From: Deltaproteobacteria bacterium
GTDB lineage: Bacteria; Bdellovibrionota; Bdellovibrionia; Bdellovibrionales; Bdellovibrionaceae
DNA length: 64,000 bases
Direction of reading: 5' to 3'
Assembly: GCA_017302835.1 (NCBI GenBank)
Contig: JAFLCC010000016.1
Location: 1 to 64,000, forward strand
A model generated the notes under the pieces. The model was not told the DNA's origin, did not search any database, and saw only the letters and a list, made by a program, of their open reading frames with translations. Position 1 is the stretch's first letter; each line of letters starts with the position of its first letter. This document shows, piece by piece, positions 11,546 through 60,260 of the stretch. The translations under genes and the position numbers were made by a program.

Positions 11546-11630
11546 GTGATCCATGTGGCCAGTAGGCGACAAAATGGCGACAACACGATGGCAATCGGCA
11601 AAATCCCATTGTTTTAGATGGAGACACGGA

Positions 11631-11760
11631 ATAAGTTTTACACAAAAATATAAATGTTTATCCTATTGTCATTGCTGGTGATTTGTTTGGGCTTTTCGAT
11701 GAATTTCTCAATTTGATATTCAAGTTAAGTCAAAATCTGTCGAAAGTTAAACGTATGGAC
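11631..11760 (+). repeat. Fibre-leader repeat, copy 2 (leader of fibre locus 1)
   Basis: Nearly the same 130 bases as 3891-4020, and its first ~55 bases recur at 15853-15907. It ends 66 bases before the lipoprotein start at 11827, so it very likely holds the promoter and leader of the lipoprotein-fibre operon. One frame (TTG 11683, ATG 11755) is open through most of it and into the lipoprotein gene. The substitutions between copies 1 and 2 in that frame are mostly non-synonymous, so I read it as non-coding. Confidence 0.7.
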
Positions 11761-11826
11761 AAAGAACCTGTTTTAGAACATTTAAAAATTTCATGTGGTG
11801 AAAATTCTTGGTTTTTTAAGGCATCA

Positions 11827-12141
11827 ATGTGTTTGTATTTTCGAAACTTCTTGTTATTGTTTTCATTGAGTGTTCTGCCTGGATGTTATTTGAATGCTAG
11901 TATTCAAGACATGAGTCCTACTAGTTCAACATCCCCCTCTTCCAGCCTTTTTGATAAAGTGACTGGTGCGGAGTTTGTTGCTGGAAGTAGTCAGTATGAG
12001 CACACACTCCTTCGAAATTACAGAAATATTTCTTCTGTTGGAAGTATCTCCAAAGAAATTCAATCAATCACTCCTCGTGGGTACAAGGCCTTTTCTTCTG
12101 TGCAAGGGACCTTGATTTCCTCCAAGGCGGCGAGCCCATGA
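11827..12141 (+). CDS. GCYxNASI lipoprotein, partner of fibre 1
   Basis: A 104-residue lipoprotein with signal MCLYFRNFLLLFSLSVLPGC, lipid-modified Cys at 20. It shares with the 103-residue product at 57361 the block GCYLNASI, then FDKVTGAEFVAGSSQY, and a RGYKAF segment near the end. The length match supports the start at 11827 over in-frame starts at 11755 and 11683; AAGG lies six bases upstream. Its TGA overlaps the fibre ATG as ATGA, so the two are translationally coupled. I infer an outer-membrane-linked helper, anchor or assembly factor for the fibre. The family is unknown to me. Confidence 0.8.
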   Translation: MCLYFRNFLLLFSLSVLPGCYLNASIQDMSPTSSTSPSSSLFDKVTGAEFVAGSSQYEHTLLRNYRNISSVGSISKEIQSITPRGYKAFSSVQGTLISSKAASP

Positions 12142-15038
12142 CTAGTCAATTGTGTTCTATTCTCCTATCATCGGTCGTTGTGATATTCATAGGAATCCAG
12201 AAAGCCCATGCAACGGGGGCAGGGATTACTTATCACGGTAGGCTTATAGATCCCAATGGCAATCCCGTTGTGAGTAGCAATGTTCAATTTCGGTTACAGA
12301 TCAAGACTCCTGGTAATGAAAACTGTTTGATGTATGAGGAAGTCCAAAATAAAGATCTCTCTATGACTAGTGGAGCTTATGCGGTGACTATCAATGATGG
12401 CACGGGATCAAGGCTTGATTCTACAGGATTTGCTCTGGATCAAATCTTTGCGAATCGAAATTCGTTTACCTTTGCTGGAGGCAATTGCGCCGCTGGGGCA
12501 ACCTACACTCCCAATGCAACGGACAGTCGGAAGATTCAGGTTTTCTTTAATGATGGAACCTTTCCCATAGGCCAGTGGGAACCCGTGGCTCCGATGGCAA
12601 TTAACTTTGTTCCTATGGCAATAGAAAGCATGCAAGTGGGTGGTTACAAGAAAGAGCAACTTATAAAGATTGCTGATGGGGTATCGACAACAGGAACAGA
12701 ACTCAATAGTGCTTCATGGACCGAGCTTCTAGCTTTGATTGGTGGAACCACCACTCAGTATGTGAAATCGGGATCGGCTAATTTCACGGCAGCTCCCCAG
12801 TGGAATGGAGTTCCTTCGGGAGCCAATGATCTTGTCAACAAAACCTATGTGGACGCACAGGTAGTGGCAGGTTTACCCAATGTGGGAACTCCAGGGACTT
12901 ATGCGAAAGTAACGACAGATACAAAGGGCAGAGTGACAACAGGAGCCGCCTTAGTGGAAGCAGATATCCCGACACTTTCCACTGCGGGAAAAGTCAGCGG
13001 CAGCGCTATCAATGCAGGCACCTTGGCCGGAAGCACCGCCATCAATTCCTCTGGAAATCTTGTGACCACGGGCACAGTTCAAGGAGCCACAGTGAGTGCG
13101 ACGAATCTGCGAGCCTACAACGGCGCTAATTATGTTCAACTGGCAGCGCCGGCACTAGGTGCTGGAAATTTGAATTTCATACTACCCTCCACAGATGGAG
13201 CTTCCGGTACTTTGATGAAAACCAACGGATCTGGTCAACTCAGTTTTGGAACTTTAAGTTCATCAGATATCCCTAGCTTGGATGCTGGAAAAATCACGAC
13301 AGGAACATTGCCTGTGGCTCGAGGTGGAACCGGACTCACGAGTTATGGGAACAACAGTGTATTGGTTTCGAATGGCACAGGCTCTGCGATAAGTTCATTG
13401 AATTGCACCATCGGACAAATCATCAAGTTTGATGCCTCTGGCTTTGCAGGGTGTGGCACCGATAGCACCGGTGGCTCTAGCCAATGGACAACCACGGGGT
13501 CTGATATTTATTACAATGCTGGGAAAGTGGGGATTGGACTGACGACTCCAGCTGCGGCGCTGGATGTTCTTGGTGCAAACACCACCGTTGGCAATGCCCC
13601 GGCAGCATTTATAGTCAACGGTGGCACATCAACTGCCGGCAGCGGAGCCAGTGGTGGGGCCATAGGTCTCAAAGGTGGTCTGGGGGATCGTGGCGGCAAT
13701 ATTTATCTAACAGGAGGTGACAATACTTTTGGCGCCTCTGGCGGATACCTGACGATAGAGGGCGGGAATTGGGGCGGACCCGGCGGCCTGGTCACTTTGT
13801 CTGGCGGTCTCGGGAAGAATGGATCTGTTGGTGGCACTTTATCACTCAAAGGGGGCAATAACTTCGGTGGTGGTCAAGGGGGGACGATTGATTTAGCTGG
13901 CGGCACCGGCACCGCAAATGGGAACGGAGGCGACCTAACTATATTGGGAGGGGCAAAGGCTGGGTCTGGCGCCGACGGGAATGTTCTTCTTGCCACCACG
14001 CGTGGCAACGTCGGTATAGGAACTACATCACCAGCGGCCCCCCTTGATGTGGCGGGAGATGTGAAGATTGGAAATAGCAGTGCTTCTTGCTCGTCCACAA
14101 ATAAAGGATCAATTCGTTACAACAATGCCTCGAGTGTTCTTGAGTTCTGCAATGGCACGAGTTGGAATCTGATTCAGGCAGCGGCTTGCAGTGATGCGAC
14201 TCCGAATGTTTTTGTGTTCACAGACCAATCGAATCAAACAACTTCAACACAAATTACTTCAGACATCGTTCAAGTGAGCGGCATTAATTGCACCATCCCC
14301 GTCACCGTTTCTGGAGTCGGCTCACCCCAATTCCAAATTTGCTCAGATTCCGGGTGTTCAAGTGTGGTGCAGGGCTGGACGAGCAGCCCTTCTTCCATTG
14401 TCAGCGGTCAGTACTTACAGGTTCGTCAGACCAGTGATGCCGCAGGTGGGGCTACAAGCCAGGCCACAATCATTGCGGGGACGACAGCCAGCATCTGGAG
14501 CATCTCAACTGCCGGTGGTGATTGTGTGGGAACGACTCCTCCCGTTGGTACTGTCTGCGCTGATGGCACCATCTACGCGGGAATTTCCCCTGACACTTCA
14601 GCGAAAATGTTCACCACCCGATGTGATTATGGACAGACCTGGAATGGCTCTGCTTGCATTGGTTCAAGACTTCCTCAGAATTGGAATAACGGAACGTCAA
14701 ATTGGACAACGACTGGCTATAGCAATAGCAACACAGGTAAGGCAAATTCTGCGGGCCTATTTACAAGTGCTGATGCGAGTTCCCCTTATGCTGCAGCAAC
14801 CATTTGTGAAAACCTAAATCAAGATGGCCACACGGATTGGTATTTGCCATCGAAAAATGAATTAAACATCATGTATGCGGGCAAAAATACGATCCGAAAC
14901 TTTGATACGAGTGGAACTTATTATTGGTCCTCGACGGAGAACAACAGTTTCGACTCGTGGAACCAGCGGATCTCTGACGGCAGCCAGAACATCGCCAGCA
15001 AGAACAACGCCTTCTTTGTCCGCTGTTCTCGTAGATAA
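12138..15038 (+). CDS. Mosaic trimeric fibre/adhesin with DUF1566 tip (fibre 1)
   Basis: A 966-residue secreted fibre. Signal peptide to about AHA (residue 26); N-terminal domain 28-160 beginning ITYHGRLIDPNGNPVVSSNV and containing FRLQIKTPGNENCLMYEEVQ, shared with the fibre at 57669; phage-tail-fibre-like shaft with LPVARGGTGLTSYGNNSVLV near 394; KVGIGLTTPAAALDVLG near 463; a Gly-rich beta-helix-like repeat region about 500-620 (GGxGGxxxLxGG units); NVGIGTTSPAAPLDVAGDVK near 625; Cys-rich linker; and a DUF1566/Lcl-type tip from about 805 to the end (WYLPSKNELNIMY, YYWSSTENN, FFVRCSRR). This layout resembles MAT fibres of Bdellovibrio, whose tips bind prey. Target unknown. Confidence 0.88.
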   Translation: MTSQLCSILLSSVVVIFIGIQKAHATGAGITYHGRLIDPNGNPVVSSNVQFRLQIKTPGNENCLMYEEVQNKDLSMTSGAYAVTINDGTGSRLDSTGFALDQIFANRNSFTFAGGNCAAGATYTPNATDSRKIQVFFNDGTFPIGQWEPVAPMAINFVPMAIESMQVGGYKKEQLIKIADGVSTTGTELNSASWTELLALIGGTTTQYVKSGSANFTAAPQWNGVPSGANDLVNKTYVDAQVVAGLPNVGTPGTYAKVTTDTKGRVTTGAALVEADIPTLSTAGKVSGSAINAGTLAGSTAINSSGNLVTTGTVQGATVSATNLRAYNGANYVQLAAPALGAGNLNFILPSTDGASGTLMKTNGSGQLSFGTLSSSDIPSLDAGKITTGTLPVARGGTGLTSYGNNSVLVSNGTGSAISSLNCTIGQIIKFDASGFAGCGTDSTGGSSQWTTTGSDIYYNAGKVGIGLTTPAAALDVLGANTTVGNAPAAFIVNGGTSTAGSGASGGAIGLKGGLGDRGGNIYLTGGDNTFGASGGYLTIEGGNWGGPGGLVTLSGGLGKNGSVGGTLSLKGGNNFGGGQGGTIDLAGGTGTANGNGGDLTILGGAKAGSGADGNVLLATTRGNVGIGTTSPAAPLDVAGDVKIGNSSASCSSTNKGSIRYNNASSVLEFCNGTSWNLIQAAACSDATPNVFVFTDQSNQTTSTQITSDIVQVSGINCTIPVTVSGVGSPQFQICSDSGCSSVVQGWTSSPSSIVSGQYLQVRQTSDAAGGATSQATIIAGTTASIWSISTAGGDCVGTTPPVGTVCADGTIYAGISPDTSAKMFTTRCDYGQTWNGSACIGSRLPQNWNNGTSNWTTTGYSNSNTGKANSAGLFTSADASSPYAAATICENLNQDGHTDWYLPSKNELNIMYAGKNTIRNFDTSGTYYWSSTENNSFDSWNQRISDGSQNIASKNNAFFVRCSRR

Positions 15039-15852: not shown

Positions 15853-15907
15853 AATAAGTTTTACACAAAAATGTGAATGTTTATCCTATTGTTCGTACTG
15901 GTGATTT
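15853..15907 (+). repeat. Fibre-leader repeat, copy 3 (partial)
   Basis: The first ~55 bases of the leader repeat (AATAAGTTTTACACAAAAAT and on to GTGATTT) recur here, then break off and run almost at once into a copy of the fibre tip domain. This fits a deletion that joined a leader to the 3' part of a fibre gene. Confidence 0.75.
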
Positions 15908-16305
15908 ATGTAATCAAATCGGTGACTGCGCGGATGGCACCATCTACGCGGGAATTTCCCCTGACACTTCAGCGAAAATGTTCGCCACCCGATGTGATTA
16001 TGGACAGACCTGGAATGGTTCTGCTTGCATTGGTTCAAGACTTCCTCAGAATTGGAATAATGGAACGACAAATTGGACAACGACTGGGTATAGCAATCAC
16101 AACACCGGTAAAGCAAATTCAGCTGGCTTATTTGCAAGTGCTGATGCTGGCTCTCCCTATGCAGCGGCTACGATTTGTGAAAACCTGAGTCAGGATGGCC
16201 ACACAGATTGGTATTTGCCATCGAAAAATGAATTAAACATCAAAGAACAACGCCTTCTTTGTCCGTTGTGCGAGGAGATAACTTTTTCTTTTATTTCCTT
16301 AATCA
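15908..16305 (+). pseudogene. DUF1566 tip-domain duplicate, internally deleted
   Basis: From about 15925 the sequence is over 90 percent identical to 14567-14870 of fibre 1: DGTIYAGISPDTSAKMF, then WNGSACIGSRLPQNW, then DGHTDWYLPSKNELNI. At 16241-16244 it jumps to the equivalent of 15001 (AGAACAACGCCTTCTTTGTC) and resembles the fibre 3' flank after that. About 130 bases of the domain are lost, and the junction shifts the frame so the normal FFVRC end is not read. No signal peptide or fibre shaft is present. A scar of a third fibre locus or a silent donor cassette. Confidence 0.8.
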
Positions 16306-57360: not shown

Positions 57361-57672
57361 ATGAAATGCTTAGGATTATTTGTTTTTTTACTGCTTCAAT
57401 TTGTATTATCGGGTTGCTATATGAACGCTTCTATAACATCTATCGCGCCACTAGACGGCAGTTCGGGTGTTCCTCTAGTTCCATTTAGCAAAGTCACTTC
57501 GCTTGAAAATGTTTCGGGTTCAAGCAATTACGTTTCTACTGCGGTCTCTGGCTTTCGAGTCAAGCAATCTGCCGGGTTATTAATTAATAAACAACTCGCT
57601 GCCACTCAGAATGGCTACAAAGTTTATTTGCACGTTAACGGACGCATCACCTCTGGAGAAGAATATCAATGA
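57361..57672 (+). CDS. GCYxNASI lipoprotein, partner of fibre 2
   Basis: A 103-residue lipoprotein, signal MKCLGLFVFLLLQFVLSGC (Cys19), then YMNASITSIAPLDGSSGVPL, FSKVTSLENVSGSSNYVSTA and NGYKVYLHVNGRITSGEEYQ. It shares GCYxNASI, F-x-KVT and the GSSxY motif with the lipoprotein of fibre locus 1 and has almost the same length. Its TGA overlaps the fibre ATG (ATGA). The conserved pairing implies a shared role in fibre export, anchoring or assembly. Upstream there is no copy of the leader repeat seen at locus 1. Confidence 0.82.
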   Translation: MKCLGLFVFLLLQFVLSGCYMNASITSIAPLDGSSGVPLVPFSKVTSLENVSGSSNYVSTAVSGFRVKQSAGLLINKQLAATQNGYKVYLHVNGRITSGEEYQ

Positions 57673-60260
57673 GAAGGCCAATGAAAGTCCTTTTCATTTT
57701 ATTTACTTTTTTTTTAGCGCCAGCCAGTTTTGCTAACAACCCTGGCGTGTCCTACCAAGGGCGCATTTTTAAACCTGACGGCAATCCACTTGAAGGCTCA
57801 TCAGTTCAGTTTCGGTTACAAGTTCGCTCTCCTGGTTCAGAAAATTGTTTGCTTTATGAAGAAGTTCAAACTTTAAATATGGCAGGCTCTTCCGGAGTTT
57901 TTGCCCTTACTCTAAATGATGGCACTGGTACAAGATTAGATACGGCAACTTACCAAGTAGACCGCATTTTTGCTAATCGTGAAACGATGACTTTGGATAC
58001 CACTCGCTGTGCGACGGGCACTACTTACACGCCTAACTCTTCTGATGGACGTAAACTGGTAGTGTATTTTAAAGATGAAACGATGGCCGCCTATGAGGCG
58101 ATGCCGCTTATGAATTTAAATTATGTACCGCAAGCTATGTACGCACTTGAAGCGCAAAAAGTAGATAAATTTGAAGTGAGTCATATTCTGCGCGCGGTGG
58201 ATGGCAGTGGTAATCCGGCGACAGCTCCGGCGCTGAATCCAACTCAATTAACAAATCTAAATACTCTGCTTGCGACTCCGGCAGCGAATTATGTTCAGAC
58301 TACCAGTAACGGCAGTGTTGCGCTTCCAGTTGTTGCGGGAAATCCTTCCAGCGGACTTGCCACTGGGCAAATCTGGTATGATTCAGGTTCTAACGTGATG
58401 AAGTATTACGATGGGGCTGTGAAAACTTTTGGTACCAGCAGTGGTCTTTCCAGTGTGGGGTTGACGCTTCCGGGGATGTTCAGTGTTACTAATTCACCAC
58501 TGACTGCTAATGGTAGCATCACCGCTACCCTTGCTAATCAGACAGCTAATACTGTTTTCGCAGGACCTGCCTCTGGCGGCCCTGCAGCTCCGACATTTCG
58601 TGCACTGGCTTCGACGGATTTACCGATCACTGGCGCTGCTGGAACCTTTATCAACGGCGGTAACAGCTTTGGTGTGGCGGGGAACATCGGTACCAACGAT
58701 GCATTTGATTTGAACTTGAAAACTAATAATACTACCAAAATGACGATTCTGTCTAATGGGAATGTTGGTGTCGGAACGACAGCTCCACAGGAAAAACTTA
58801 ACGTTGTCGGTAATGTTCTTGTCAATGGCAATAATTTATTCGAGTTTTTCGGCAATTCCTTTCCGCAGTCCAGCGGAAAATTACAGTTCCAGAATTTCTA
58901 TGATTCCGATCCTGGAGTAGGAATGACTACAGGAAATTCAAAAATGTCCATTCAAGACATAACTATAAATGCAAATGGAGATAGTCGTCTAAGCGTCCTC
59001 AATAATTCGGACGTAGAGATATTTTCTGTCACTAGTGCTGGCAACGTTGGGATAGGGACTACGACGCCGGTCAGTAGGCTCACTGTTAATGAGACAAATG
59101 TTGCCACCTCCGGAACTAGAAACCTAAGCGATTTCAGTCTGATCGTTTTGCCACCATCCGCATCCACAGCAGTCAACCAAGGATTTCAACTCAAAGCCTA
59201 CAACAATTCAACTGGAGCCTACGGCTATGGGGCTATTCGCGGGATGAGAATTGAGTCCACATTTAATGGAGCTGCGACTTCTTCTGCTTCTACTGTGGAA
59301 GGCATCAATGTTGTATCTTCTGCATTGGGCGGCACCGCAACAAATGTAACGGGCGCTAATATTCTCGCAATGGGCTCTGGCAGTCCGACAACAACATTAA
59401 CAAGACTTACCGGAATTGATTTAACCACTGAGCTAGATGGACCTGCCAGCACAGTAAACATGTATGGGGTGAGTTCGAATTTGTCTACATCAGGGACCGT
59501 TACATCGACGAATCGCTATGGATTCTACCACAATGACTATAATTCCGGTACTTCGACAAATTCCTACGGCGTATATATCTATGATGACAACTGGGGCACC
59601 GTCACCAATCACTATGGGATCTTTTTAGATACTCGTGCTACGGCCACAAATAACTGGGGTGTTTACCAAAAAGTTTCAGCAGCCAAAAACTACTTCGCCG
59701 GCAACGTAGGTATAGGAACTACAGCTCCACAAACTACCCTCCAAGTTGCTGGAGTTATTTCACCAGCGGTAGACAATACCACGACTCTTGGCAGTGCCAC
59801 CTATCGATTCACAACAGTCTATGCGACAAATGGTACAATCAATACCTCTGATCGTCGTGAGAAAAAAGATATTTATGAAACCGATTTGGGCTTGGATTTT
59901 ATTAACAAATTGCGCCCGGTTTCCTACCGTTGGAACTCTGGAATTGATAATGATGTTCACTATGGCCTAATTGCCCAAGAAGCAGAACAAGTGATTGATG
60001 AGATTGGTAAAGGGGAAAAGACCTCTATTGTCACTCACGACGAAACAACAGATCGTTATGGCGTTAGGTACTCAGAACTCATTTCGCCCCTAATTAAAGC
60101 CATTCAGGAGCTTTATATGAAGTTTTTAGGGGTTGATCATAAGATCGCTTTTTTGAAAGTCGAAAACGCATCAATCAAGCAAGAAAACGCTGAACTTAAG
60201 GCGCGCCTTGACCAACAGGAAAAAGAACTAGCAGCCATTAAAAATAAGCTCGGATTATAA
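57669..60260 (+). CDS. Mosaic trimeric fibre with S74 chaperone tip (fibre 2)
   Basis: An 863-residue fibre. Signal peptide to about SFA (residue 22). N-terminal domain 24-160 (VSYQGRIFKPDGNPLEGSSV, then FRLQVRSPGSENCLLYEEVQ) homologous to fibre 1. Shaft with repeated NVGxGTTxPxxxLxV motifs near 362, 458 and 680, the last leading to VAGVISPAVDNTTTLGSATY. A unique middle domain spans about 480-670. The C-terminal Peptidase_S74-type intramolecular chaperone starts at INTSDRREKKDIY: Ser727 and Lys732 have the five-residue spacing of the autocleavage pair of endosialidase-type chaperones. LIAQEAEQVIDEIG and a coiled-coil end follow. Resembles Bdellovibrio MAT fibres. Confidence 0.9.
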   Translation: MRRPMKVLFILFTFFLAPASFANNPGVSYQGRIFKPDGNPLEGSSVQFRLQVRSPGSENCLLYEEVQTLNMAGSSGVFALTLNDGTGTRLDTATYQVDRIFANRETMTLDTTRCATGTTYTPNSSDGRKLVVYFKDETMAAYEAMPLMNLNYVPQAMYALEAQKVDKFEVSHILRAVDGSGNPATAPALNPTQLTNLNTLLATPAANYVQTTSNGSVALPVVAGNPSSGLATGQIWYDSGSNVMKYYDGAVKTFGTSSGLSSVGLTLPGMFSVTNSPLTANGSITATLANQTANTVFAGPASGGPAAPTFRALASTDLPITGAAGTFINGGNSFGVAGNIGTNDAFDLNLKTNNTTKMTILSNGNVGVGTTAPQEKLNVVGNVLVNGNNLFEFFGNSFPQSSGKLQFQNFYDSDPGVGMTTGNSKMSIQDITINANGDSRLSVLNNSDVEIFSVTSAGNVGIGTTTPVSRLTVNETNVATSGTRNLSDFSLIVLPPSASTAVNQGFQLKAYNNSTGAYGYGAIRGMRIESTFNGAATSSASTVEGINVVSSALGGTATNVTGANILAMGSGSPTTTLTRLTGIDLTTELDGPASTVNMYGVSSNLSTSGTVTSTNRYGFYHNDYNSGTSTNSYGVYIYDDNWGTVTNHYGIFLDTRATATNNWGVYQKVSAAKNYFAGNVGIGTTAPQTTLQVAGVISPAVDNTTTLGSATYRFTTVYATNGTINTSDRREKKDIYETDLGLDFINKLRPVSYRWNSGIDNDVHYGLIAQEAEQVIDEIGKGEKTSIVTHDETTDRYGVRYSELISPLIKAIQELYMKFLGVDHKIAFLKVENASIKQENAELKARLDQQEKELAAIKNKLGL

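Follow-up and report, generated by a model that had tools for sequence, protein, structure and literature searches.

A small lipoprotein gene is repeatedly found directly 5' of genes for mosaic adhesive trimer (MAT) fibres, and the lipoprotein co-diverges with the N-terminal domain (N-domain) of the fibre, not clearly with its tip. We lean towards the idea that such a pair encodes a cell-surface adhesive fibre together with its putative holder, a lipoprotein of the outer membrane that would dock the MAT N-domain. The pair considered here lies in a window of 64,000 nucleotides (nt), positions 1–64,000 of contig JAFLCC010000016.1 (assembly GCA_017302835.1), from a genome of 3.63 Mb in 35 contigs (here G000). 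An earlier note on this DNA had described an open reading frame (ORF) for a lipoprotein of 104 amino acids (aa) joined by ATGA to a 966-aa fibre ORF, and the coordinates were confirmed (Table 1). In a second pair in the window (57361–60260) the two genes likewise overlap by ATGA, as they do at two further loci elsewhere in G000. This recurrence, together with exact 4-nt overlaps in 24 of 60 pairs across the family, indicates that the window operon is not a chance arrangement.

Judged by sequence, both window fibres are MAT proteins. The Bdello_MAT_N profile (NF053851) matched both above its cut-off of 60 bits, at residues 15–177 in the 966-aa fibre, and in both a conserved beta-rich N-terminal domain directly follows the presumed signal peptide. 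The earlier note had likened the fibre to MAT adhesins of Bdellovibrio, which agrees with these scores and with the 21 N-domains in genome G008, which we take to be Bdellovibrio bacteriovorus HD100. Other parts it had listed were also seen: a probable Sec-type leader (IQKAHA/TG, assigned by eye), Gly-rich repeats in the translation and a DUF1566 tip. This tip (Lcl_C, PF07603, residues 879–964) passes the Pfam gathering cut-off of 34.9 bits and has a weak relative in the PDB, HbP1 (8q4e, E 4e-6). It resembles Lcl_C/DUF1566 adhesin domains to that extent; it differs in being one of several exchangeable MAT tips, and the remaining protein is unrelated to the Pfam domain. The second fibre matched tail spike/fibre families of phages in PHROGs. 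An AlphaFold2 (AF2) model of the MAT N-domain contains beta strands and has a predicted local distance difference test score (pLDDT) of 79 and a predicted template modelling score (pTM) of 0.71; it had no PDB match at E ≤ 0.001, in line with PMC10769870. Like the MAT fibres of B. bacteriovorus in that paper, the window fibres carry the MAT N-domain and exchanged tips (DUF1566; S74-type), whereas the published tips are TNF-like, C-type lectin or beta-sandwich domains rather than DUF1566.

For the distribution of the lipoprotein, a diverse profile (A3) was searched in 66 genomes of the family, homologues were kept at E ≤ 1.1e-3 and the surrounding DNA was read. There were 104 homologues, and 60 lay directly 5' of an ORF with a MAT N-domain; a 61st 5' pair has an N-masked MAT. 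By chance fewer than one of the 104 would be expected beside a MAT, given 7.6 MATs among approximately 3400 genes per genome (gene number estimated). The overlap is exactly 4 nt in 24 of the 60 pairs, counted from the first possible start codon, further pairs would fit an overlap of 8 nt, and most of the remainder overlap or lie within about 30 nt. Apart from the N-masked pair, the 44 homologues not scored 5' of a MAT comprise about 30 that stand alone and 13 that an S74 MAT gene directly precedes. The earlier note had asked whether homologues always lie directly 5' of a fibre gene; these do not. Of the five homologues in G000 itself, one stands alone and the other four are directly 5' of MATs. 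In a phylum-wide draw, MATs were present in 47 of 48 lipoprotein-positive genomes vs 101 of 291 overall, although these genomes are related and not independent.

Counted from the side of the fibres, the pairing is less complete. The same 66 genomes hold 499 MAT N-domain matches (7.6 per genome) vs about 60 small partners, and 1 of 20 MATs examined in genome G020 has a lipoprotein partner. That the two are always paired was rejected, since most MATs in HD100 and G020 lack a 5' lipoprotein gene. The earlier note had called the partner fixed and had counted a majority of partner-less fibres with this N-terminus as evidence to the contrary. Such a majority was found, and "fixed" is too strong; the lipoprotein recurs as a partner and is typical of particular MAT subclades.

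Some homologues occur in other settings. The 13 Bdellovibrio orthologues on the immediate 3' side of an S74 MAT (L142:11020-11370 and, among others, L030, L031, L036, L093, L094, L096, L098, L175, L180 and L181) mostly lie 5' of a gene encoding a "VDVRRNITL" protein. A homologue without a MAT at L011:3755-4069 (G000:C23) is followed by an ORF resembling a CpaF/TadA-type ATPase. A lipoprotein–MAT pair also occurs in L156 (CALQIT020000013.1), a record titled Streptomyces griseus; it matches Bdellovibrionota genome G034 and the title looks wrong.

The claim that the lipoprotein is coupled to the fibre is supported by the recurrent gene overlap and by co-divergence with the MAT N-domain. Across 57 pairs the distances of lipoprotein and N-domain were correlated (Mantel rho 0.60, 0 of 500 permutations), and shuffling partners within genomes gave a mean rho of 0.22 (sd 0.07, 0 of 1000). 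In eight complete pairs, lipoprotein identity followed that of the N-domain (rho 0.89) vs a rho of 0.25 for the last 150 residues. The mosaic nature of the fibres is seen in three G000 paralogues, where the lipoproteins are 91–96% and the N-domains 95–98% identical and the C-termini 19–52% identical. The lipoprotein and N-domain are thus a stable unit and the tip is an exchangeable one. When 105 MAT N-domains were placed on a tree, there were 11 changes of the partner label vs 34.8 in shuffles (0 of 500), which shows that the partner marks MAT subclades. The large Bdellovibrio S74 clade is partner-less with three exceptions, in which the lipoprotein is 111–147 nt upstream.

The window lipoprotein has the lipobox LPGC with the Cys at position 20, and this Cys is invariant among the aligned homologues. 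The motif GCYxNASI, put forward in the earlier note, is present in the window protein and is only a genus-level form; the residues after the Cys across pairs are mostly CS-[ML]-[ED]-A-S-[IL]. Residue +2 is Tyr in the window protein, Ser in 42 and Asp in 1 of 57 pair members. Having no Asp after the lipidated Cys, the window protein has the form expected for outer-membrane sorting under the +2 rule of E. coli, a rule that may not hold in Bdellovibrionota. The window lipoprotein had no match in Pfam, NCBIfam or PHROGs (E ≤ 0.01) or among PDB sequences. A literature search, which covered few subscription journals or preprints, found no paper on the partner, and the words "lipoprotein" and "operon" are absent from the main text of PMC10769870. 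This agrees with the view that the partner is so far undescribed; the MAT fibre family is known, and we found no description or family match for the lipoprotein. Its AF2 model (pLDDT 58.6, pTM 0.25) has residues 1–28 disordered, followed by three strands at mature residues 36–40, 47–62 and 68–83, and the lipoproteins share a conserved C-terminal pattern, ..GYxV..SxG......T..GYxVxxxVQG. Long predicted hairpins without a confident fold of their own are what one would expect of a protein that a partner completes, although this is weak evidence.

Larger lipoproteins of about 180–280 aa, whose middle part is Ig-like or of another kind, also lie 5' of MATs, and a 248-aa example precedes one MAT in G000 (L111). 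Outside the family, lipoproteins of about 200–280 aa are directly 5' of MATs in L234, L235, L236 and L238, with a 4-nt overlap in L235 and L238; three other homologues there stand alone. Because the small and larger MAT-preceding lipoproteins share only the lipobox and the C-terminal GYxV...GYxV double-hairpin module, this module appears to be the constant MAT-linked part.

From these data we infer the following sequence of events. The lipoprotein would be made first, and translational coupling at ATGA would then match MAT fibre synthesis to it. The lipoprotein would be lipidated at Cys20 and sent to the outer membrane, where its C-terminal beta-hairpin module would be presented on a flexible tether of approximately 28 residues. 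This module would bind the membrane-proximal MAT N-domain and so anchor or position the fibre, and the tip would stay free for exchange. The earlier note had offered anchoring, export or capping as roles; anchoring of the fibre by the candidate lipoprotein fits best. Caulton et al. (2024; PMC10769870) left the "surface element" that holds MATs unidentified, a role for which the lipoprotein is a good candidate.

Several observations weigh against docking and retention of the fibre by this lipoprotein. About 30 homologues are not beside a MAT, and most MATs, notably the large Bdellovibrio S74 clade, have no lipoprotein gene 5'. MAT genes without one persist beside intact pairs in the same genome, which argues that the partner is not strictly needed in cis. 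The AF2 model of the lipoprotein is of low confidence, and linked inheritance alone also predicts co-divergence and explains part of it.

Loci without the lipoprotein gene also show how it may be lost. Three G000 fibre genes (C35, C10:26596 and C2:152; L102, L103 and L104) begin with the DNA found upstream of lipoprotein genes, and the first 48 nt or so of the lipoprotein gene are fused in frame to the mature fibre; as the three are near-identical they were counted as one event. In a BLASTN comparison, 11611–11818 and 12152–12700 adjoin in the paralogue at C2:291745 at 75% and 87% identity, and 11819–12151, with the lipoprotein gene, is absent. Deletion is the simpler reading because the relatives G006 and G034 have the gene. 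In G000, then, fibre loci seem to have lost a lipoprotein gene by excision on at least two occasions.

An unlikely alternative, if the strongest of those considered, is that the lipoprotein is an export or assembly factor on the periplasmic side, a chaperone or pilot that keeps the N-domain competent to pass the outer membrane or to form trimers, and is no lasting anchor. Gene overlap and N-domain co-divergence fit this equally well, the long predicted hairpins would suit a strand-donating chaperone, and we know of no route by which MATs cross the outer membrane. However, partner-less S74 MATs and the deletion derivatives would need another factor, and the lipid anchor is kept with spacers of widely different size before the module, which suits a tether. 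We give less credence still to genomic hitch-hiking, in which a separate surface protein is carried along with MAT N-domains by cassette duplication and does not interact with them. The G000 pairs do resemble duplicated cassettes, with approximately 100 nt of shared DNA upstream; stand-alone homologues exist, and linked genes co-diverge anyway. Yet several genera have overlaps of 4 or 8 nt, such overlaps recur with the larger lipoproteins in further families of the order, and shuffling partners within genomes lowers the correlation. Phage T5 Llp, a small superinfection-exclusion lipoprotein, acts on the outer-membrane receptor of a receptor-binding protein and so stops that protein (PMC9586334). 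A comparable self-adhesion blocker, masking self receptors of the fibre tip, is suggested by the gene for a small lipoprotein next to that for a phage-like, adhesive-tipped fibre, but is very improbable, as a blocker should covary with the tip and the window lipoprotein follows the fibre base (rho 0.89 vs 0.25) and matched no PHROG family at E ≤ 0.01.

Docking by the hairpin module may extend beyond the adjacent pairs. We suggest tentatively, and with less confidence than for the pair itself, that lipoproteins with this module might form a general cognate base for a large class of MATs in Bdellovibrionales, exist in at least two size forms and serve partner-less MATs in trans, the lipoprotein and N-domain being a conserved socket for exchangeable prey-binding tips. 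For the recognition of prey by predatory bacteria, MAT fibres are the best candidates, and the lipoprotein gives a specific candidate gene for how they are held. In HD100 (G008) this gene lies just 5' of 6 of the 21 MAT genes, including the presumed Bd2734 and Bd2740 (identity by size and map position). Neither the simple S74 MATs nor the MATs that correspond in size to Bd2133, Bd1334 and Bd2872 have a 5' lipoprotein. In PMC10769870, which gives the same number of MATs and names the question of how they are held on the cell, single deletions of Bd2734 and of Bd2740 slowed predation. A scan for promoters and terminators gave sites no more numerous than in shuffled sequence.

Table 1. Features of the two window operons (window positions) and MAT genes with a 5' lipoprotein gene in G008
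Feature	Position	Strand	Basis or remark
Lipoprotein gene, 104 aa	11827..12141	+	ORF and lipobox LPGC, homologues; ATG 11827, TGA 12139-12141
Lipoprotein signal peptide	11827-11883	+	lipobox
Lipid-attachment Cys codon (Cys 20)	11884-11886	+	lipobox; SVLPGC/YLNASIQ
Predicted flexible tether, mature lipoprotein residues 1-28	11884..11967	+	AF2 pLDDT <50
Lipoprotein C-terminal beta module, common to MAT-linked lipoproteins	11989..12132	+	low-confidence model and conserved pattern
ATGA overlap, fibre start and lipoprotein stop	12138..12141	+	4 nt
MAT-family fibre, 966 aa	12138..15038	+	NF053851, 106.3 bits; ATG 12138, stop 15036-15038
MAT N-terminal domain of fibre	12210..12680	+	NF053851; AF2 model
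Gly-rich shaft repeats of fibre (limits approximate)	13620..13990	+	read from translation
DUF1566/Lcl_C tip of fibre	14772..15029	+	PF07603, 41.4 bits
Stretch absent from partner-less paralogue locus G000:C2:291745	11819..12151	+	BLASTN
Second lipoprotein gene, 103 aa	57361..57672	+	lipoprotein homologue
Second MAT fibre, 863 aa; sequence indicates an S74-type chaperone end	57669..60260	+	NF053851, 115.4 bits; PHROGs
G008 MAT, 843 aa			5' lipoprotein, 4-nt overlap; presumably Bd2734 (protein size)
G008 MAT neighbouring the 843-aa one	2.66 Mb		5' lipoprotein, 53-nt gap; presumably Bd2740 (protein size and map place)
G008 MAT, 922 aa			5' lipoprotein of 198 aa, 4-nt overlap; presumably Bd3182 (protein size)
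G008 MAT	2.35 Mb		5' lipoprotein; we take it as possibly Bd2439
G008 MAT	2.46 Mb		5' lipoprotein
G008 MAT, 1959 aa	0.68 Mb		5' lipoprotein

Two other origins of the fibre and its tip were rejected. A phage-borne cassette is not supported, as the MAT N-domain had no relatives in viral contigs. A diversity-generating retroelement acting on the DUF1566 tip is not supported either, as the last 199 nt have no template copy in G000 and gave only short partial paralogue matches there; the one reverse-transcriptase (PF00078) match in G000 is on another contig (L243, G000:C26:20293-20670). A decayed copy of the DUF1566 tip region lies at 15873–16281, approximately 0.9 kb downstream of the fibre gene. 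It is without 128 nt found in the intact tip, with 16211–16242 joined to 16243–16281, and is possibly a remnant of tip exchange.
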